Assembly: GCF_009769735.1 (NCBI RefSeq) | Contig: NZ_WSRO01000002.1 | Coordinates: 1,922,001 to 1,986,000, forward strand | Origin: Streptomyces sp. BA2 | GTDB lineage: Bacteria > Actinomycetota > Actinomycetes > Streptomycetales > Streptomycetaceae | Length of the DNA stretch: 64,000 nucleotides | Direction: 5' to 3' | In this document: piece after piece, positions 51,864 through 60,612 of the stretch | Numbering within the stretch: the first letter of the stretch is position 1 | Layout: each line of letters begins with the position of its first letter | Notes under the pieces: model-generated | The model's input: only the letters and a program-made list of their open reading frames with translations | Told to the model about the DNA's origin: nothing | The model's database searches: none | Program-made: the position numbers and the translations under genes

Positions 51864-51951
51864 TCCGGCCACGGTGCGCCGGCCGCCGAGGAACTCCCCG
51901 ACGATCGCTGTACGTTGAAGGTAGTGACCCCGGATGCGAAGGAGCACCAAC

Positions 51952-52884
51952 ATGGCCACACGACTCGGGCTCAGCCTCCCGCAGGGCCGGCAGTACAGCA
52001 TCGGACGTGACGTCCCGGCTGTCGCCCGCGCGGCGGAGGAGATCGGTTACGAGAGCCTGTGGGTCTACGAACGCGTCCTGTTCCCCGAGCCCGCGACCCA
52101 GGGGCTGTACGGCATCGAGGGCCTGCCCTGGCCGGACACGTACCGCTCGGTGCCCGATCCGCTGATCACGCTGACCCTGGCCGCGGCCGCCACGGAGCGG
52201 GCCCGCCTGGGCACCAGCGTCCTGATCGCCCCGCTGCACGTGCCGTTCCAGCTGGCGCGCTCCCTGGCCACGTTGGACGCGGCGAGCGGCGGCCGCGTCG
52301 TCGCGGGCTTCGGCACAGGCTGGTCCCACGACGAGTACGCGGCCTCGGCGGTGGCCCCCTTCGAGAAGCGCGGCAAGGTCCTGGACGAGCTGATCGACGT
52401 CTGCCACGCGGTGTGGGGCCCGGACCCCGTGTCGTACGAAGGGGAGCTGACCACGATCGCTCCCTCCGTGGTCGGCCCCAAGCCCGCGCGCCCCATCCCG
52501 ATCCTGCTGCCCGCGGGCAGCCCGCGCGCCCAGCGCAGGCTCGTCGACCGCGCCGACGGCTGGATGCCGGTGGGCATGGGCGCCGAGAAACTGGCCGAGC
52601 AGGCCCAGGAGCTGAAGGACCTGGCCGCCGAGCGGGGACGCACGGAACCGGTCCAGAGCGTCCTGCGTGCCAACGCCCGGTACACGGCGAAGGCGTACGA
52701 GGGCGAGAAGCGCGCGCCCTTCCGGGGCAACGTCGCGCAGATCGTCGAGGACCTGGAGGCGCACGCCTCGACGGGTGCGGTGGAGGAGATCCTCATCGAG
52801 CTGCAGGGGAGCACGCAGGACGCGGAGGAGCTGAAGGATCTGGCGGCGGAGGTGTACGAGGCGGCGAGGGCGGCGGGGATCTAG
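51952..52884 (+). CDS. LLM class F420-dependent oxidoreductase
   Basis: The 310-residue luciferase-like TIM-barrel protein has RLGLSLPQGRQY at its start, ARLGTSVLIAPLH and GGRVVAGFGTGWSHDEY, typical of actinobacterial F420-dependent oxidoreductases. The substrate is unknown. AAGGAG precedes the ATG at 51952. The stop is immediately followed by a repeated Streptomyces intergenic element and the convergent davB gene. Confidence 0.9.
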   Translation: MATRLGLSLPQGRQYSIGRDVPAVARAAEEIGYESLWVYERVLFPEPATQGLYGIEGLPWPDTYRSVPDPLITLTLAAAATERARLGTSVLIAPLHVPFQLARSLATLDAASGGRVVAGFGTGWSHDEYAASAVAPFEKRGKVLDELIDVCHAVWGPDPVSYEGELTTIAPSVVGPKPARPIPILLPAGSPRAQRRLVDRADGWMPVGMGAEKLAEQAQELKDLAAERGRTEPVQSVLRANARYTAKAYEGEKRAPFRGNVAQIVEDLEAHASTGAVEEILIELQGSTQDAEELKDLAAEVYEAARAAGI

Positions 52885-52966: not shown

Positions 52967-54676
52967 TCAGTCCTCAGGCAGCTCCACGGGAGCAATCTCG
53001 TCGTACACATCCCCGGGCCCGGGGTTGGTGGCGTCGGTCGCACCCCCGAAGTGGTGCATAACCCCCCACACCGCGTTCAGCGCGGTCTGCACCGCACCCT
53101 CGGCCCACCCCGCCGTCCAGGAGATGTCATCCCCGGCGAGGAAGATGCCCCGCTTGTCCTCGGGCAGCGACTCCTGCATGAAGTGCGTGAACAGGCGCCG
53201 CTGGTAGCGGTAGTGGCCGGGCAGGTTCGCCTTGAAGGCGCCCATGAAGTACGGCTCGTTCTCCCACGACACCGTCACCGGGTTGCCGATGATGTGCTTG
53301 CGGATGTCGACCTTGGGATAGATCTCGCCGAGCGACTTGAGCATGACCTCCATGCGCTCGTTCGCCGACAGGGGCAGCCACTTCAGGCTGTCGTCGCACC
53401 AGGTGTAGGAGAGACAGATGACGGCGGGCTTGTCCGGGCCGTCGTCGAGCAGGTACGTGCCGCGCGTCATCCGGTCGGTGAGCGTCATCGACATGACGTC
53501 CCGGCCGGTCGGGTTCCCCCTGTCGTCGACGGCCTTGTCCAGCCAGAACGGCCGGTCGACCGGCACGAAGAGCTTCGAGGACTCCATGTAGTGGGTCCGC
53601 TCCATCGCCGTCCAGTGATCGATGGGGAAGAGCGTGTCGTCGCACGCGATCTTCGAGAGCAGCATCCAGGACTGGGCGGTGAAGATCGCCGCCTGGAAGG
53701 TGCGGATGTCGCCCGAGGCGTCGGTGACGGTGACGCGGTTGCCCGCGGTGCGGTCCAGACGGGTCACGGCGGGCTTCGGCACACCGCCCTCGTGCAGCGA
53801 GCTCAGGGACGTGCCGGGCTCCCAGTGCACGATCTTCTGCGGCTCGCGGTCCCACATGCGAAGGGGCAACTGCTGGCTGCCGCCGACGATGCCGCGGTGG
53901 TGGTCGTCGGCCTCGGTGTAGACGACGCGCAGGATCTCCAGGATGGAGTTCGGGAAGTCGGTGTCCCAGCCGCCCGTGCCGAAGCCGACCTGGCCGAAGA
54001 TCTCGCGGTGCCGGAAGGACTTGAAGGCCTCGGACTCGCAGAGGAAGCCGTAGAAGGTCTGGTTGTCGAGCTTCTCGACGAGCTTGGACCAGATCTCGCG
54101 GATCTTCGGTACGTCGCGCTCGCGCAGGGCGCGGTTCATGTCGGAGAAGTCGGCGCCCTCCTCCAGGCAGGAGTTCCAGGCGTTCATCACGTCGCGGTAG
54201 ACCTGGGGCAGGTCGTCGACGGACGTCGCGTAGTGGGACTCGCCCTTGAGGTCGACGACCGTCGAGGGCGTCGACTCCGCGAGGGGGTTGGGGAACGGCT
54301 GGGTCTTGAGGCCCACCAGGTCGATGTAGTGCTGGAGCGCCGTCGAGGACGGCGGGAAGCGCATGGCGCCCATCTCGGCGGTGAGGTCGCCGTCGCAGCC
54401 CTCGAAGCCGACGGTGCGCAGCCGGCCGCCGATCTGGTCGGCCTCGTAGACGACGGGCTTGAGGCCCATCTTCATCAGTTCGTACGCGGCCACGATGCCG
54501 GACAGGCCGCCGCCGATGACCGCGACCTCCGTGCCGTGCTCGGTCGCGGGTATCTGGCCGAGGCCCGCCGGGTGGGCGAGGAAATCGTCGTACGCGTAAG
54601 GGAAGTCCGGACCGAACATGGTGATCGGCGGCTGCGCGTCGGTGTGCTGGACGGCGTTGGGCACCGTGGACGTCAT
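52967..54676 (-). CDS. davB: L-lysine 2-monooxygenase-like FAD amine oxidase
   Basis: The 569-residue flavoenzyme has the FAD dinucleotide fold GGGLSG at 55-60, VYEADQIGGRL, and a C-terminal FAD segment FLAGDDISWTAGWAEGAV. Overall it aligns closely with Pseudomonas DavB, as I recall it (PFPNPL, GQVGFGTGGWDTDFPNS, GDVYDEI). DavB oxidatively decarboxylates lysine to 5-aminovaleramide. The related tryptophan monooxygenase IaaM is the main alternative. It is 65 bases downstream of davA on the same strand, with AAGGAG before the ATG. Confidence 0.85.
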   Translation of the reverse strand: MTSTVPNAVQHTDAQPPITMFGPDFPYAYDDFLAHPAGLGQIPATEHGTEVAVIGGGLSGIVAAYELMKMGLKPVVYEADQIGGRLRTVGFEGCDGDLTAEMGAMRFPPSSTALQHYIDLVGLKTQPFPNPLAESTPSTVVDLKGESHYATSVDDLPQVYRDVMNAWNSCLEEGADFSDMNRALRERDVPKIREIWSKLVEKLDNQTFYGFLCESEAFKSFRHREIFGQVGFGTGGWDTDFPNSILEILRVVYTEADDHHRGIVGGSQQLPLRMWDREPQKIVHWEPGTSLSSLHEGGVPKPAVTRLDRTAGNRVTVTDASGDIRTFQAAIFTAQSWMLLSKIACDDTLFPIDHWTAMERTHYMESSKLFVPVDRPFWLDKAVDDRGNPTGRDVMSMTLTDRMTRGTYLLDDGPDKPAVICLSYTWCDDSLKWLPLSANERMEVMLKSLGEIYPKVDIRKHIIGNPVTVSWENEPYFMGAFKANLPGHYRYQRRLFTHFMQESLPEDKRGIFLAGDDISWTAGWAEGAVQTALNAVWGVMHHFGGATDATNPGPGDVYDEIAPVELPED

Positions 54677-54741
54677 GGGGTACGGACTCCTTGCGGGAAC
54701 GGCAGAAAGGAAGAGAGGGGAAGCTCAGGGGGCGGCGGGGT

Positions 54742-55539
54742 TCAGATCAAGGACGCGTACAGACCCGGGCGGCGGTCGCGCAGGTAGGGGTTGGCCTCGC
54801 GCGACGCGGCGAGGAAGGCCGGGTCGGCGTCGGCGAACACCAGCTGCTCCTCCCGTCCGGCGCGGGTGCGCGCGACTCCGTCAGGTCCTGCCAGCGTGGA
54901 GAGGCCGACGAACTCGAACTCCCCTTCCTTGCCGACCCGGTTGACGTACGCGACGTACATCTGGTTCTCGAAGGCCCGCACCGGCACGACCGACTCGGCG
55001 ACGAACTGGAAGGGGTGCATCTGGGCCGTGGGCACGAGCAGCAGGTCGGTGCCCGCGAGGGCGTGCGCGCGGACGTTCTCCGGGAACTCCACGTCGTAGC
55101 AGATCATCAGGCCGATCCGCAGGCCGCCCAACTCCGCCTGTACGACGGCCTGTTCACCGGGGGTGAAGTGGTCGCGCTCGAAGCAGCCGAAGAGGTGGGT
55201 CTTGCGGTAGTTCGCGAGGCGCGAGCCGTCGGGGCCGATCAGCTGGACGGAGTTGAAGACCTGCTCCCCGTCCCGTTCCGGGTAGCCGTAGGCGATCGCG
55301 ACGCCGTGGCGTACGGCGGTCTCGGCGATCGCGGCGGCCGACGCCCCGTCGGCGGCCTCGGCCAGACGCGGCACGTCGTCGCCGATGGCGTACCCGGTGA
55401 GGTACAGCTCGGGCGCCGCAAGCAGCCCGGCCCCCGCCGCCGAGGCACGGCCCGCGGCGTCGTCGAGCGCCTTGAGGTTCTCGGCGACGGATCCGAGCTG
55501 CCCGGAACTCTGGAGCAGGGCGGTGCGCAGCGCAGGCAT
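54742..55539 (-). CDS. davA: 5-aminovaleramidase-like nitrilase-superfamily amidase
   Basis: The 265-residue carbon-nitrogen hydrolase has the E44-K113-C147 triad (APELYLTGY, NYRKTHLFG, LMICYDVEFPEN). It resembles DavA, which hydrolyses 5-aminovaleramide to 5-aminovalerate and ammonia, the step after DavB. GAGG lies six bases before the ATG at 55539. With davB downstream it forms a two-gene operon. If davB were an IaaM homologue, this would be the amide hydrolase of that route. Confidence 0.86.
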   Translation of the reverse strand: MPALRTALLQSSGQLGSVAENLKALDDAAGRASAAGAGLLAAPELYLTGYAIGDDVPRLAEAADGASAAAIAETAVRHGVAIAYGYPERDGEQVFNSVQLIGPDGSRLANYRKTHLFGCFERDHFTPGEQAVVQAELGGLRIGLMICYDVEFPENVRAHALAGTDLLLVPTAQMHPFQFVAESVVPVRAFENQMYVAYVNRVGKEGEFEFVGLSTLAGPDGVARTRAGREEQLVFADADPAFLAASREANPYLRDRRPGLYASLI

Positions 55540-55621
55540 GGCGGATCCTCGGGGCGTACGAAGGGGCAGGTGGGGTCCGTTAGACGGTACGGTCGGCGGC
55601 CCTGTCCGGACAAGGCGCGAG

Positions 55622-55681
55622 CGTTGCGGGCTGATGCGCGATCTGTTGCGCTCTGCGGGTCCCGAGCGGCGATTCGTTGCG
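55622..55681 (-). promoter_or_regulatory. Three GTTGCG repeats upstream of davA
   Basis: CGTTGCG at 55622-55628, TGTTGCG at 55644-55650 and CGTTGCG at 55675-55681 (read on the plus strand) lie 83 to 142 bases above davA, at intervals of 22 and 31. The distal copy continues as TGGCGG. The same motif occurs three times above the permease-lrp operon. The rest of the 55540-55814 gap shows nothing else. Confidence 0.65.
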
Positions 55682-55814
55682 TGGCGGCGTGGGACCGGGG
55701 TCGTAGCGGTGTCCACCGCCGGGCGCAGGGGGTACGGAGGTGTTCCCCGCCGCGCGGGGGAGGCGGATTGCCGCCCGTGGCCGGACGTGCCGGGACCCCC
55801 TACCGCGAGACCGT

Positions 55815-55841
55815 GATCTCGCCCGGAAGGACCGGGTGAAC
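55815..55841 (+). promoter_or_regulatory. Stem-loop element 1 upstream of the first secreted paralogue
   Basis: CCCGGAAGGACCGGG (55822-55836) forms a five-base stem and sits in a 27-base block. The block is repeated before the second paralogue at exactly the same distance (22 bases) from the start codon. Confidence 0.7.
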
Positions 55842-55863
55842 GGCACGCATCAGGAGGCTTCCC

Positions 55864-56484
55864 GTGAGCCGCAACGCAAGCACCCGGATCGCTGACAGCC
55901 GCCCGACCAGCACCCGCGGCAGGGTGATCGCCGTAGGGACCGCCCTGCTGCTCTCCGTGGGGGCGGTGGGAGCGGCCGTCGCGTCGGACGACGGCGGGAC
56001 CCGCGAGGCCACCTCGAAGACCCAGGCCCGGGAGGCCGCCGCCCTCACCGGCAGCGCGAAGCTGTACCGCAAGACCACGGAGGACGTGACGTTCACCTTC
56101 GACGCCCATCTCGCGCGGCGCGACACCATGCGCCCGGACAAGGCGACCGGCACCTTCCGCTTCGTCCACCTCGACAAGCCGGGTGGCAAGGGCGGCTGGG
56201 CGAAGGGCCGTATCGACTGCCTGATGACGGGCGGCAAGGTCGCCACGGCGACCGGCGTGATCACGGACACCAATCTCAAGGAGATCAAGGGCGGCCGCGT
56301 CGGCTTCACGGTCCACGACCAGGGCAGGCACGACCGCGTGGGCTACAGCTGGGCCTCGGTCGGCCGCCCCGACGGGACCAAGAAGCTGCCCAAGTGCACG
56401 AGCGCGGCCCCTTTCGAGAAGGTCAAGCAGGGCACAGGCGACTTCAACGTCAAGCCCTGGCACCCCACGTACCCGACCGACTGA
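55864..56484 (+). CDS. Secreted protein of unknown function, paralogue 1
   Basis: The 206-residue protein has a signal peptide (hydrophobic about 20-40, ending AAVASDD). The mature part shares REAAALTG, TFDAHL, DCLMTGGKVAT, TVHDQG and GYSWA with the gene that follows. Two cysteines (DCLM and PKCTSAAPF) are conserved in both and probably form a disulfide. GTG at 55864 has AGGAGG seven bases upstream. It lies on the opposite strand to the flanking amino-acid genes. No enzyme motif was recognised. Confidence 0.82.
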   Translation: MSRNASTRIADSRPTSTRGRVIAVGTALLLSVGAVGAAVASDDGGTREATSKTQAREAAALTGSAKLYRKTTEDVTFTFDAHLARRDTMRPDKATGTFRFVHLDKPGGKGGWAKGRIDCLMTGGKVATATGVITDTNLKEIKGGRVGFTVHDQGRHDRVGYSWASVGRPDGTKKLPKCTSAAPFEKVKQGTGDFNVKPWHPTYPTD

Positions 56485-56577
56485 CCCATCGGGCAGGCCC
56501 GGCGTCGCCTCCGCCGCACGGCGGAGGCGGTCACCCCCTTACGCACGATGCACCGGGCATCGGCCCACGGGAGTGTG

Positions 56578-56604
56578 GATCACGCCCGGAGGGACCGGGC
56601 GGAC
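56578..56604 (+). promoter_or_regulatory. Stem-loop element 2 upstream of the second secreted paralogue
   Basis: CCCGGAGGGACCGGG (56585-56599) is the counterpart of the element before paralogue 1. The two leaders align without gaps up to the start codon, including the final CTTCCC. Confidence 0.7.
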
Positions 56605-56626
56605 CACAGCCAGACAGGGGCTTCCC

Positions 56627-57193
56627 ATGAACCGCCGCTCCACCCTCATCCGAGTCGTCGCCGCAGGTGCCGTGCTCCTCGCACTCGCCGGAGCCGTGGG
56701 CCCCGCGACCGCGTCGGACGCCGCCCCGCGCCCCGGCCGCGAGGCCGCGGCCCTGACCGGAACCGCCAAGCTGGACCGGCCGGCAGGGGACGAAGCCACC
56801 ATCACCTTCGACGCCCATCTGGACGCCGCGGGCCAGAACGACCCCAGGACCGCGTACGGCACCATCAAGTTCAGCCACTACATGGAGAACCCCGAGTTCG
56901 GCGGCTCCGCCGAGGCGCGCGTGGACTGCCTGCTGACCGGCGGGAAGGTCGCCACGGTGTCGGCGGTCGTCACGAAGGCGGACGGCGGCCTCAAGGGGGC
57001 GATCGGCAAGCGCGTCGGGATGACGGTCCACGACCAGGGCAAGCAGGACCGCTTCGGGTACAGCTGGGCCATGGTCGGCATCCCGAACGACCTGCCGGAC
57101 GACATGCCCAAGTGCGTGAGCGCGGCCCCGTTCGACAAGACCGCGCCCGGCAGCGGCGACCTCCGCGTACGCCCGATGGAGCGTCGCCCGTAA
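56627..57193 (+). CDS. Secreted protein of unknown function, paralogue 2
   Basis: The 188-residue protein has a signal peptide (about 1-31, ending GPATASDAA) and is about half identical to its upstream neighbour, keeping GREAAALTG, DCLLTGGKVAT, MTVHDQGK and PKCVSAAPF with both cysteines. ATG at 56627 is chosen by homology with the first copy; AGGGG is seven bases upstream. A tandem duplication including the leader is evident. Function unknown. Confidence 0.82.
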   Translation: MNRRSTLIRVVAAGAVLLALAGAVGPATASDAAPRPGREAAALTGTAKLDRPAGDEATITFDAHLDAAGQNDPRTAYGTIKFSHYMENPEFGGSAEARVDCLLTGGKVATVSAVVTKADGGLKGAIGKRVGMTVHDQGKQDRFGYSWAMVGIPNDLPDDMPKCVSAAPFDKTAPGSGDLRVRPMERRP

Positions 57194-57231
57194 GGCGGCT
57201 CACCGGCCGCGGCGGACCCGCGGTCGAGGTG

Positions 57232-57687
57232 CTACGCAGGCGCCCCGGAAGAAAACCTCCGCATCAAGGGTGAGAGCACCAGCACGGACTTCGTCCGCTC
57301 CACGAAGTGCTCGCCCGCGATGCGTTCGAGCACCCGCTCGAAATGCCGCATGTCGGCGGCGAAGACCTGGACGACGGCGTCCGCCTCCCCGGTGACGGTG
57401 GAGGCGGACGCGATCTCCGGATACCGCTCGAGGCCACGGCGAATGGCCTCGGGCGAGGTGTTGCGACGGCAGTAGATCTCGATGAACCCCTCGGTCTCCC
57501 AGCCGAGCGCGGCCGGGTCGACCCGCACGGTGAATCCCGTGATGGCGCCGGTCTCCCGGAGCCGGTCCACGCGCCGCTTCACGGCGGGCGCGGAGAGCCC
57601 GACCAGCTGGCCGATGTCGGCGTAGGAGCGGCGGGCGTCCTCGGCGAGGGCGTGCACGATGCGTTCGTCGAGATCGTTCAGTCGCAC
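57232..57687 (-). CDS. Lrp/AsnC family transcriptional regulator
   Basis: The 151-residue regulator has an N-terminal winged helix (ARRSYADIGQLVGLSAPAV near residues 18-36) and a RAM domain with VTGEADAVVQVFA, the usual ligand-site glycine region. GTG at 57687 lies ten bases after the stop of the amino-acid permease, so the two share a transcript. It is a good candidate to control the permease and davAB through the GTTGCG repeats, perhaps with lysine as ligand. Confidence 0.93.
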   Translation of the reverse strand: MRLNDLDERIVHALAEDARRSYADIGQLVGLSAPAVKRRVDRLRETGAITGFTVRVDPAALGWETEGFIEIYCRRNTSPEAIRRGLERYPEIASASTVTGEADAVVQVFAADMRHFERVLERIAGEHFVERTKSVLVLSPLMRRFSSGAPA

Positions 57688-57697
57688 TGGGGGTGGA

Positions 57698-59182
57698 TCA
57701 CTTCTCTGCGGAGGCCAATCGGGAGCGGCTCATGCCGTACAGGAAGTAGAACACGAGGCCGACGGCCATCCAGACACCGAAGACCGTCCAGGTGATGGAG
57801 TCGAGGCTGAACATGTTGTACGCGCAGAAGCCGAAGCCGAGGACCGGGAAGAGCCAGCCCAGCGGCACGCGGAAGGTGCGCGGCATGTCCGGGCGGGTCC
57901 GGCGAAGGACGATCACGGCGATGTTGACCAGGCCGAAGGCGAAGAGCGTACCGATGCTGGTGGCGTCGACGAGCTTGCCGAGCGGGATGACCGAGGCGAG
58001 CGCGGCGCAGAACAGCGACACGATGACGGTGTTCACGCGGGGCGTGCCGGTCTTCTTGCTGACCTTGCCGAAGGCCTTCGGCACCAGGCCGTCGCGGGAC
58101 ATCGCGAACAGGACGCGGGTCTGGCCGTAGAGGACGGTCAGGACGACGGACGCGATGGAGATGACGGCGCCGGCGGCGAGCAGCGTGCCCCAGAAGTTCT
58201 GGCCGCTGACGTCGTTCATGATCGCGGCGAGCGTGGCCTCGGAACCCTCGAAGTCCTTCCAGTTCCAGGCGCCGACGGCGACGGCCGCGACGAGGACGTA
58301 GAGGGCCGTGACGATGATCAGCGAGAGCATGATCGCGCGGGGCAGGTCGCGCTGCGGGTTCTTCGCTTCCTCACCGGCGGTGGAGGCGGCGTCGAAGCCG
58401 ATGTACGAGAAGAAGAGGCTCGCGGCGGCGGCGCTGACGCCGGCCGTGCCGAGCGGCATGAAGTCGGAGTAGTTGCCGGACTTGAAACCCATGAAGCCGA
58501 TGGTGCAGAAGAGGATCAGCGCGGCGATCTTCACGATGACCATGATCGTGTTGGCCGTCGCCGACTCCTTGGCGCCGCCGAGCAGGAACACCATGGCGAG
58601 CAGCACGACGATCAGGCCGGGCAGGTTGATGATGGCGCCGTCGACCTCGCCGGGAGCCGCCGAGAGGGCGTCCGGGATCGTGACGCCGATGGTCCCGTCG
58701 AGCAGTTCGTTGAGGTACTCGCCCCAGCCGACGGCGACGGCCGCGACCGAGACTCCGTACTCCAGGACGAGGCACCAGCCGCAGACCCAGGCGACGAGTT
58801 CACCCATCGTTGCGTACGCGTACGAGTAGGAGGAGCCCGCGACCGGTATGGAGCCGGCGAGCTCGGCGTACGACAGCGCGGAGAAGAGCGCGGTGAGGCC
58901 GGCGATCACGAAGGAGATGGTGACGGCGGGCCCGGCCTTGGGGACGCTCTCGCCGAGGACGACGAAGATGCCGGTGCCGAGCGTGGCGCCGATGCTGATC
59001 ATGGTCAGCTGCCACATGCCGAGGGAGCGCCGCAGCGAGCCGCCCTCACCCTGGCCGCCCTCCGCGACCAGGAGTTCCACCGGCTTGCGCCGCATCAAGC
59101 GGGCTCCGAACCCGGTGGCCCCCGGGGGGCTTGGGCGGTTCTGCGGGGGTGCGCCTTGGTCGAGCACGCGTGGCTCCTTCAT
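57698..59182 (-). CDS. APC superfamily amino acid permease (cationic type)
   Basis: The 494-residue transporter has twelve or more helices. The APC site motif MISIGATLGTGIFVVLG lies at about residues 61-77, and FFSYIGFDAASTAGEEAKNPQRD is typical of the CAT/YfnA group. Import of lysine or another cationic amino acid fits the davAB genes nearby. The first ATG (59182) has no good ribosome-binding site; an ATG at 59095 preceded by GGAG is a possible true start. It is followed by its lrp gene. Confidence 0.92.
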   Translation of the reverse strand: MKEPRVLDQGAPPQNRPSPPGATGFGARLMRRKPVELLVAEGGQGEGGSLRRSLGMWQLTMISIGATLGTGIFVVLGESVPKAGPAVTISFVIAGLTALFSALSYAELAGSIPVAGSSYSYAYATMGELVAWVCGWCLVLEYGVSVAAVAVGWGEYLNELLDGTIGVTIPDALSAAPGEVDGAIINLPGLIVVLLAMVFLLGGAKESATANTIMVIVKIAALILFCTIGFMGFKSGNYSDFMPLGTAGVSAAAASLFFSYIGFDAASTAGEEAKNPQRDLPRAIMLSLIIVTALYVLVAAVAVGAWNWKDFEGSEATLAAIMNDVSGQNFWGTLLAAGAVISIASVVLTVLYGQTRVLFAMSRDGLVPKAFGKVSKKTGTPRVNTVIVSLFCAALASVIPLGKLVDATSIGTLFAFGLVNIAVIVLRRTRPDMPRTFRVPLGWLFPVLGFGFCAYNMFSLDSITWTVFGVWMAVGLVFYFLYGMSRSRLASAEK

Positions 59183-59230
59183 CGCTGCCGGTCAGGGCGG
59201 CGGGACCGGCGGCAGCTCCCACGCATGGAT

Positions 59231-59255
59231 GGGGACCGCCGAGCAGGCGGTCCCC
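59231..59255 (-). promoter_or_regulatory. Strong hairpin in the permease leader
   Basis: A perfect 10-bp stem (59231-59240 with 59246-59255, loop GAGCA on the plus strand) lies 49 bases before the permease start. It could attenuate transcription of the permease-lrp transcript or protect its 5' end. Between it and the start nothing else was recognised. Confidence 0.6.
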
Positions 59256-59335
59256 GCCACACCACGTACAGCGGATGACTCTATGAGGCGCGCTTCACGT
59301 ACGTAATGCAGCAACCTTGCGCAGCCCCGCATGAT

Positions 59336-59393
59336 CGTTGCGTACTTCCCTTTCCTGCGGGTCTTCGTTGCGCGGTCCGTTTCGTCCGTTGCG
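59336..59393 (-). promoter_or_regulatory. Three GTTGCG repeats upstream of the permease-lrp operon
   Basis: CGTTGCG occurs at 59336-59342, 59366-59372 and 59387-59393, at intervals of 30 and 21. The distal copy continues as TGGCGG, as in the distal davA copy. An inverted half-site pair GCAA-cc-TTGC lies at 59311-59320. The 314-base gap otherwise holds the start region of the divergent LLM gene. Confidence 0.65.
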
Positions 59394-59496
59394 TGGCGGG
59401 GCTCCGGGGGAAGCGATTGACACTTCGTCAGATCTCCCTCATCGTGCACCTCGGTCGACAGGTCGTGCGCCCCGGTCGAGAGGGAGGCAGCAGGCG

Positions 59497-60612
59497 ATGG
59501 ACCTCGATGTGCTGTACGAGATCGACGTACCGAAGCCCTGGAACGGACCCCATCCGCACGGCCAGCGCACCGCCGAGCAGCGCGCCTACCGCGAGGCCGT
59601 GGAACAGATCCGGCTCGCGGACCGCGTAGGTTTCCGCACGGTGTGGGCCGTGGAGCACCACTTCCGCGAGGGCCGCTCGCACTGCCCCGCCCCCGAAGTG
59701 CTCCTCGGGCATCTCGCGGCACTCACCGAGCGGATACGCCTCGGCTTCGGCGTCACGCTCACCCCCTTCGGCTTCACACCTCCGCAGCGGATAGCGGAGA
59801 AGGTGGCGGCGGTGGACGTGCTCTCGGAGGGCCGCGTGGAGTGGGGCACGGGCCGCTCAACACCCATGGAACAGACGGCCTTTGGCGTCGACAGGGAGCA
59901 GTCGCGGTCCGACTGGCGCGAGGCGATCGAGATCGTGACGGGCATGTGGCGCGAGGAGTACTTCGCGTACGAGTCCGAGCGGTTCTCCTTCCCCCGCCGG
60001 ATGGTCACACCGAAGCCGGTCCAGGACCCGCACCCGCCGTGCTGGATGGCGGCGACATCCCCCGGCTCGGCGGAGGTGGCGGGCGCCGCGGGCCTCGGGC
60101 TGCTGTCGTTCTCGATCATGCAGCCGCTGGAGGCGATGGCCCGCCAGGTCGCCGCCTACCGCGCGGCGGCGCGCACGCCGGCCCCCATCACGGATGTCAC
60201 CACGGACCGCGTCAGCGCGTACACGCTGGTGCATGTGGCGGACCGACCCTCGCGGCGGGTCTGGGACTCGGTGGCCTGGTGGTACCGCAACCTGGCCCAG
60301 TTCACGCTCGACTGGGAGCTGCCGCACCTGACCCCCGAGGAGCGCGAGCGGACCTTCCCCTTCCTCACCCCGATCATCGAAGGGAACGTCCCCGTCGAGG
60401 AGTTCGACGACGGCGACATGATCCTCATCGGCGACGCGGAGACCATCGTCCGCAAGGCGAAGCGCTACGCCGACCTCGGCATCGACCAGCTCATCTGCTA
60501 CGTCCAGTGGGGGTATCTGGAGCACCGGGAGATCCTGCGCACGATCGAGATCCTGGGCAAGGAAGTCATCCCGGAACTGGCGTCGTACCGGCCGCGGCGG
60601 GCGGCACCGTGA
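59497..60612 (+). CDS. LLM class flavin-dependent oxidoreductase
   Basis: The 371-residue luciferase-like monooxygenase has VWAVEHHFREGRSHCPAPEV, IRLGFGVTLTPFGFTPPQRIAEKVA and SEGRVEWGTGRSTPMEQ, the luciferase family substrate and flavin regions. AGGGAGG is nine bases before the ATG at 59497. Its stop overlaps the SDR gene (GTGA), which overlaps an SGNH hydrolase gene, so the three make a coupled catabolic unit of unknown substrate. Confidence 0.9.
   Translation: MDLDVLYEIDVPKPWNGPHPHGQRTAEQRAYREAVEQIRLADRVGFRTVWAVEHHFREGRSHCPAPEVLLGHLAALTERIRLGFGVTLTPFGFTPPQRIAEKVAAVDVLSEGRVEWGTGRSTPMEQTAFGVDREQSRSDWREAIEIVTGMWREEYFAYESERFSFPRRMVTPKPVQDPHPPCWMAATSPGSAEVAGAAGLGLLSFSIMQPLEAMARQVAAYRAAARTPAPITDVTTDRVSAYTLVHVADRPSRRVWDSVAWWYRNLAQFTLDWELPHLTPEERERTFPFLTPIIEGNVPVEEFDDGDMILIGDAETIVRKAKRYADLGIDQLICYVQWGYLEHREILRTIEILGKEVIPELASYRPRRAAP

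Follow-up and report, generated by a model that had tools for sequence, protein, structure and literature searches.

The window, that is the whole 64,000-nucleotide stretch of Streptomyces sp. BA2 DNA analysed (contig NZ_WSRO01000002.1, positions 1,922,001 to 1,986,000), contains four minus-strand genes encoding a davB-like monooxygenase, a davA-like amidase, an Lrp-type regulator and a permease, described here as a putative regulon for arginine catabolism. An earlier note on this DNA had placed DavB- and DavA-like enzymes, a cationic amino-acid permease and an Lrp regulator together in one cluster. All four genes were found there and their families were confirmed by domain matches; the genes do stand together but are divided into two minus-strand operons, davA-davB and permease-lrp, split by two plus-strand genes for small proteins. 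The davB-like gene (52967..54676) encodes a 569-residue amino-acid 2-monooxygenase of the type that uses flavin adenine dinucleotide (FAD), contains PF01593 and is the proposed arginine 2-monooxygenase. It starts 65 bp after the stop codon of the davA-like gene (54742..55539), the product of which is a 265-residue amidase of the nitrilase superfamily and the proposed 4-guanidinobutyramidase. DavA contains the carbon-nitrogen hydrolase domain PF00795 with a Glu-Lys-Cys triad recognised by eye in PELYLTGY, YRKTHLF and ICYDVEFPE. The regulator (57232..57687; 151 residues) has an AsnC-type helix-turn-helix (HTH_AsnC, PF13404) and a ligand-binding domain (AsnC_trans_reg, PF01037), the combination characteristic of the Lrp/AsnC family. 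The amino-acid permease (57698..59182) matched AA_permease_2, TIGR00909 above its cut-off and PF13906, the C-terminal domain of cationic permeases; an alternative GTG start near 59167, with AAGGAG upstream, is plausible by eye.

Both operons are preceded by the same kind of operator array. Alignment of 26 davA upstream regions revealed repeated GCGCAACGAATCG-like boxes, and the window contains three GCAAYR boxes before davA (minus strand, 55622..55680) that start at 55680, 55649 and 55627 with spacings of 31 and 22 bp, hence 141, 110 and 88 bp upstream of the gene. The array before permease-lrp (minus strand, 59315..59392) has boxes starting at 59392, 59371 and 59341, which is 210, 189 and 159 bp upstream of the permease gene, and a fourth box (GCAAGG) at 59320, 21 bp further on (spacings 21, 30 and 21). 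The array was found in 90 of 95 distinct full-length davA upstream regions, a set with DavB at least 80% identical that comes mostly from the closest relatives, and in 47 of 54 permease regions; 50 dinucleotide-shuffled versions of either set contained none. When the 10-Mb genome was scanned with the three-box pattern, the sole matches lay upstream of davA and of the permease gene, and no further members of the regulon came to light. The reversed control pattern matched once in one scan of the same genome and not at all in another; a chance match is therefore unsurprising, and the weight lies on the position of the matches directly before davA and the permease gene. A slightly tighter pattern matched in at least 131 of 150 Streptomyces genomes and, among the matches listed, in none of five DavB-less genomes; some matches of this genus scan are low-complexity GGCAAC-rich runs, and control matches occurred in a minority of genomes.

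Immediately beyond box 3, inspection of the footprint by eye suggested a putative davAB promoter, TTGTCC-N18-TACCGT (minus strand, 55584..55613). The CTTGT of its putative -35 element begins 13 bp downstream of the box 3 start in each of the 86 loci whose array has exactly the 31/22 spacing. A generic scan for promoters gave no match. Two natural rearrangements agree with a shared operator: in genome G012 (loci L230 and L231) davA and davB are millions of bases apart and the array is still attached to davA, and in G045 (L052), where no DavA was found within the 19.5-kb davB locus, the array ends ~0.36 kb upstream of davB, directly before it. In family f17 four of eight davA upstream regions contain two boxes 31 or 22 bp apart, and the array persists in loci L043 and L046, in which no Lrp was found. 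As they share this array, the two operons look like a single regulon, which the earlier note had suggested as a candidate, and the array is a stronger argument for it than clustering alone. The Lrp-type regulator is proposed, from its linkage, as the binder of the GCAAYR arrays; its ligand and the sign of regulation are inferred too. The array offers a compact operator for the study of Lrp-type control.

The genes are widespread in the genus and keep their neighbourhood. Of 150 sampled Streptomyces genomes, 145 had a DavB match at E <= 1e-30, and among 296 genomes of the class 45 matched at E <= 1e-40. The 10.04 Mb genome of the window encodes one close DavB homologue; its four other matches are short, none exceeding 42% identity. 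Of 20 Streptomyces loci with flanks, 19 have DavA beside DavB, 18 have Lrp and 12 have the permease. The corresponding counts were 98, 70 and 61 in a larger collection of 101 loci, all with a DavB identity of 80% or more; some genomes are represented twice in it, and some loci are truncated by a contig end or a short flank. In family f17 the gene order is rearranged, and all four genes were present in seven of nine loci with the remaining two on short contigs. Since the neighbourhood is kept across the 20 Streptomyces loci and in the rearranged f17, the clustering is beyond chance.

The best match of DavB among solved structures was 3we0, the L-amino acid oxidase/monooxygenase of Pseudomonas AIU813 (E 2.5e-233, 58% identity over aligned columns); the NCBIfam scan gave no model above cut-off for DavB or DavA. 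The active-site set of DavB reads RWDAHYWFAGW, and the protein shares with AIU813 the FAD motif, Arg102, Trp235, Asp238, Tyr416, Trp418, Phe473 and Trp516, so that the flavin amine-oxidase fold and the residues which at this level mark a lysine monooxygenase (Arg102, Tyr416, Phe473, Trp516 and Asp238) are all present. According to passages of PMC5832979, Asp238 of AIU813 binds the side-chain charge of lysine, ornithine and arginine, Trp235 and Ala515 line the pocket, and oxidase activity with ornithine and arginine is 31% and 6% of that with lysine. The retained Asp238 gives DavB the basic-side-chain pocket expected of an arginine 2-monooxygenase and fits lysine, ornithine or arginine alike. 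Public sources name several of 120 listed DavB homologues 'tryptophan 2-monooxygenase' and three 'lysine 2-monooxygenase'; most bear generic names. Although DavB also matched the tryptophan 2-monooxygenase 4iv9, the match was far weaker (E 2.8e-57), and tryptophan as substrate, in an auxin-type role, was rejected on position 238, where the tryptophan enzyme has a hydrophobic residue, Val (passages of PMC5832979), and DavB has Asp. The partner amidase is of the PF00795 type and not the tryptophan-type PF01425, a difference that in Pseudomonas tells lysine- from tryptophan-type enzymes (passages of PMC12462448). A tryptophan enzyme is thus very improbable.

Candidate partners of an arginine route are encoded in the genome: the amidase gene adjoins davB, and a ureohydrolase, for which guanidinobutyrate or agmatine are candidate substrates, is present but unlinked to davAB (G000:C2:3625357-3626352). 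This ureohydrolase is 64% identical to that of a Tsukamurella plasmid operon (L235) with the order speB-permease-carbon-nitrogen hydrolase-davB and a divergent XRE gene. Ureohydrolase genes also occur in locus L111 of family f33, where davA-davB is accompanied by speB, a thiamine pyrophosphate (TPP) enzyme and two genes resembling succinate-semialdehyde dehydrogenase, and in locus L104 of family f28, where a divergent speB lies beside davB. The window permease is 60.5% identical to that of Tsukamurella and ~60% identical to the Arthrobacter-type permease. Among the amidases, DavA is closest to that of Tsukamurella (53% identity), followed by those of Sulfitobacter (45%), the Arthrobacter type (40-41%), Paracoccus (38%) and Ketogulonicigenium (34%). 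Some Streptomyces carry a second DavB copy, ~62% identical, and those at L035, L036, L037, L039 and L040 lie by coenzyme A-ligase-like or polyketide-synthase-like genes, as judged by eye from translated open reading frames; L038 pairs with L036 in the tree. These six together with L110, L113 and L114 make up the nine cluster-type rows considered below. No such neighbours were recognised at L110, and a DavA-family amidase lies beside the L110 and L113 enzymes.

The pocket of DavB differs from that of AIU813 at Cys254, Gln258, Pro514 and Ala515, which are replaced by Ala, His, Ala and Gly. Two of these, Cys254 and Ala515, together with grouping with AIU813, were taken to characterise a lysine enzyme, and DavB shows neither residue nor the grouping; the rhodobacter members of the AIU813 clade themselves have Leu or Phe at 254. 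Separating columns were defined between five AIU813-like rows (5/5), of which only AIU813 is known to have measured activity, and twelve arginine-context rows (at least 11/12), a class chosen by us from context and consisting of nine polyketide-cluster-type rows plus the Tsukamurella, L104 and L111 enzymes; L110, L113 and L114 were added to the nine after their Phe516 was seen. At the 16 separating columns DavB was AIU813-like at none, arginine-context-like at 14 and neither at two. Gly515 occurs in the window and in all twelve arginine-context rows, and the full Ala254/His258/Ala514/Gly515 set is also found in the Tsukamurella, L104 and L111 enzymes that adjoin a ureohydrolase. At position 516 the nine cluster-type rows all have Phe and the core-type rows, window included, have Trp in 150 of 150, which separates the two enzyme groups and makes Phe516 a possible marker for arginoketide clusters. 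Trp516 was considered as a marker for lysine as substrate and dropped, because it is also present in the enzymes of Tsukamurella, L104 and L111, which are linked to a ureohydrolase. Two further homologues were noted: the f28 enzyme at L105 (G176) has Leu254 and a ureohydrolase ~9 kb away on the same contig, and L116 (G390:C20), a distant homologue with 37% identity, has Phe238 and Glu254 and probably differs in substrate.

A tree of 49 DavB rows, with the midpoint root beside one very long outlier, placed AIU813 and four rhodobacter enzymes in one clade (100/100) that excludes the window, with the Arthrobacter and f33 enzymes joining it (100/99). The window and f17 enzymes (99/90) form the sister of this AIU813/Arthrobacter/f33 group (80/86), and the Tsukamurella and f28 enzymes and the nine cluster-type rows, themselves one clade (89/78), fall outside the grouping of window and AIU813. 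The rival reading, that of the earlier note, is a true DavBA lysine route by way of 5-aminovaleramide, which would go on via 5-aminovalerate to glutarate. The 58% identity to an enzyme of measured activity, the seven shared active-site residues from Arg102 to Trp516, the weakly placed sister position, the PF00795 partner and the three homologues named lysine 2-monooxygenase by a source all fit that route, as does the aminovalerate activity also named for GabT in passages of PMC9397018. Against it stand the complete lack of AIU813-type states at the separating columns, the four replaced pocket residues, the position outside the AIU813 clade, the ureohydrolase genes adjoining davB in Tsukamurella, L104 and L111 and the genomic co-occurrence of DavB with ureohydrolase. 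Lysine as the substrate is consequently judged unlikely.

The co-occurrence was evaluated with the ureohydrolase of the window's own genome as query (E <= 1e-60), which matched in 85 of the 296 class genomes. Matches were found in 43 of 45 genomes with DavB and in 42 of 251 without. The two DavB-containing genomes lacking one, G218 and G390, carry Phe516-type enzymes (L110 and L113), and Trp516 was seen in 42 of the 43 genomes with both, the other (G164) having a partial hit at a contig edge. Outside Streptomyces the proportions were 16/18 and 42/250 (Fisher p 4e-10, uncorrected for relatedness), and a rough genus-level count gave p 2e-4, shared ancestry again being uncorrected. In a check of 30 chosen Streptomyces genomes, all 24 with davB had a ureohydrolase match, although the best match in G045 and G112 was only 68-72% identical (68% in G045) and may be a paralogue. 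Four davB-less genomes of at least 98% completeness (G037, G120, G121 and G375) also lack the ureohydrolase and all keep GabT; two davB-less genomes of 78-82% completeness have it. As a separate observation, the ureohydrolase gene adjoins a TPP-enzyme gene at L241 (G000:C2:3616000-3635500) and L088. The relative of this TPP enzyme in L111 (51% identical) matches '5-guanidino-2-oxopentanoate decarboxylase' below cut-off, and in L111 the ureohydrolase and TPP-enzyme pair is located with davAB.

A broad monooxygenase for basic amino acids (arginine, lysine, ornithine and perhaps canavanine), serving as a general scavenging module, would agree with the action of AIU813 on lysine, ornithine and weakly arginine via the same Asp238 (passages of PMC5832979), with Gly515, which would widen the pocket, and with the cationic-permease domain. 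Close co-occurrence with one ureohydrolase favours a single main substrate, however, and this alternative is rated as rather improbable, a little below the lysine route.

The locus is best interpreted as a regulon devoted to breaking down one basic amino acid, with L-arginine the probable substrate. The permease would import arginine, and the DavB-type flavoenzyme would convert it by oxidative decarboxylation to 4-guanidinobutyramide as an arginine 2-monooxygenase (EC 1.13.12.1). The DavA-type amidase would then yield 4-guanidinobutyrate, the unlinked ureohydrolase would split this to urea and 4-aminobutyrate (GABA), and GabT with a semialdehyde dehydrogenase would carry GABA to succinate. Arginine is probably the signal sensed by the Lrp-type regulator, which would bind the GCAAYR boxes, set at helical spacing, in front of both operons. 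We infer this substrate and these reactions since the pocket residues, the operon partners of some relatives and the ureohydrolase co-occurrence lean towards arginine, and since the window amidase is closer to that of Tsukamurella than to the Paracoccus, Sulfitobacter and Ketogulonicigenium amidases. Arginine is favoured also because of physiology reported for the genus. According to passages of PMC2242806, which refer to Thoai 1966, a route from arginine to GABA was first described in S. griseus. For S. coelicolor, passages of PMC3293853 report that arginine is usable as sole carbon or nitrogen source, that the arginine deiminase genes are unresponsive and a standard arginase gene is absent, and that gabT doubles with arginine as the sole induced gene among decarboxylase-pathway homologues; the word 'monooxygenase' does not occur in its main text.

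Several observations weigh against arginine. The most serious, provided that S. lividans has the near-universal davB, comes from passages of PMC5082578: with the azalomycin cluster this species produced azalomycin only when 4-guanidinobutyramide was fed, and the authors state its genome to have no arginine monooxygenase. Should davB be there, its product supply was too low; the feeding result also fits a lysine enzyme. Scores above the NCBI agmatinase cut-off were obtained for the Tsukamurella, L104 and L111 ureohydrolases, and the window genome encodes one decarboxylase of the OKR_DC family, which includes arginine decarboxylases, so that the window ureohydrolase may be an agmatinase serving agmatine. 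With this OKR_DC-family enzyme in the genome, a cadaverine route for lysine is possible as well. The Ala254/His258/Ala514/Gly515 set recurs in Arthrobacter-type and f17 enzymes, and no ureohydrolase was found in the searched davB loci of f17, the Arthrobacter type or core Streptomyces; the arginine-type states may be ancestral. At position 516 the window has the Trp of AIU813 and not the Phe of the polyketide-cluster-type enzymes; Phe516 is not known to be a requirement of arginine 2-monooxygenases. The fork that matters most in the tree is weak (80/86), and the tree, while compatible with arginine, does not settle the substrate alone. Genomes of f17 often carry the ureohydrolase whether or not they have davB, and in a GabT tree the four co-loss genomes fall inside a six-genome clade with G113 and G135, which keep both genes, suggesting that the co-loss within the genus was probably one or two events.

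Between the operons, the plus strand encodes two related small proteins (55864-56484 and ~56624-57193) with signal-like N-termini by eye; Pfam and NCBIfam scans of the pair were without match, and they were present in 38 and 36 of the 101 examined loci, respectively. Two plus-strand luciferase-like monooxygenase genes flank the regulon (51934-52884 and ~59485-60612), the first present in four and the second in one of the 20 Streptomyces loci.

The enzyme class and the pathway are already known; neither the assignment of this core Streptomyces regulon nor its operator was found in searches of open-licence papers. No title or abstract opening describing a lysine monooxygenase/aminovaleramide (davAB) route in Streptomyces was found there, and passages of PMC8405998 and PMC12930585 held nothing further on Streptomyces. 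The regulon is a concrete, genus-wide candidate for the Streptomyces arginine route and, if the assignment is true, would supply genes for a pathway described decades ago; it also suggests revision of labels such as 'tryptophan 2-monooxygenase'. More tentatively, at somewhat short of even confidence, we propose a near-universal Streptomyces arginine 2-monooxygenase regulon of two operons, with an Lrp-family reader of three or four direct GCAAYR boxes two and three helical turns apart, that would both account genetically for the arginine-to-GABA route of S. griseus and be the catabolic counterpart of the arginoketide starter enzymes.

The known DavBA lysine system is that of P. putida. AIU813 (PDB 3we0 and 5yb6-8) resembles the window enzyme in fold, FAD motif, the seven retained active-site residues and a paired nitrilase-type amidase, whereas the window enzyme lies outside its clade, has Ala254/His258/Ala514/Gly515, co-occurs with a ureohydrolase and is linked to a permease and Lrp under a shared operator. 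The arginine monooxygenase and 4-guanidinobutyramide hydrolase of arginoketide clusters of the azalomycin type share with the window Ala254, Gly515 and the amidase family, the ~62% identical second copies in Streptomyces being presumed from their neighbours to be of this type. Those copies have Phe516 and mostly coenzyme A-ligase- or polyketide-synthase-like neighbours, whereas the window davB is a core gene near the permease-lrp operon. Passages of PMC5082578 and PMC10322714 describe arginine monooxygenase as the first step to arginoketide starter units, and in those of PMC4737276 the cluster ureohydrolase DstH strips the amidino group from desertomycin B. The S. griseus arginine-to-GABA pathway, which the citing passage of PMC2242806 calls an oxidase/dehydrogenase route with no gene named, is proposed to be the same as that of the window. 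The Tsukamurella operon encodes the same permease, amidase and monooxygenase families as the window but differs in having the ureohydrolase inside the operon and a divergent XRE gene rather than Lrp.

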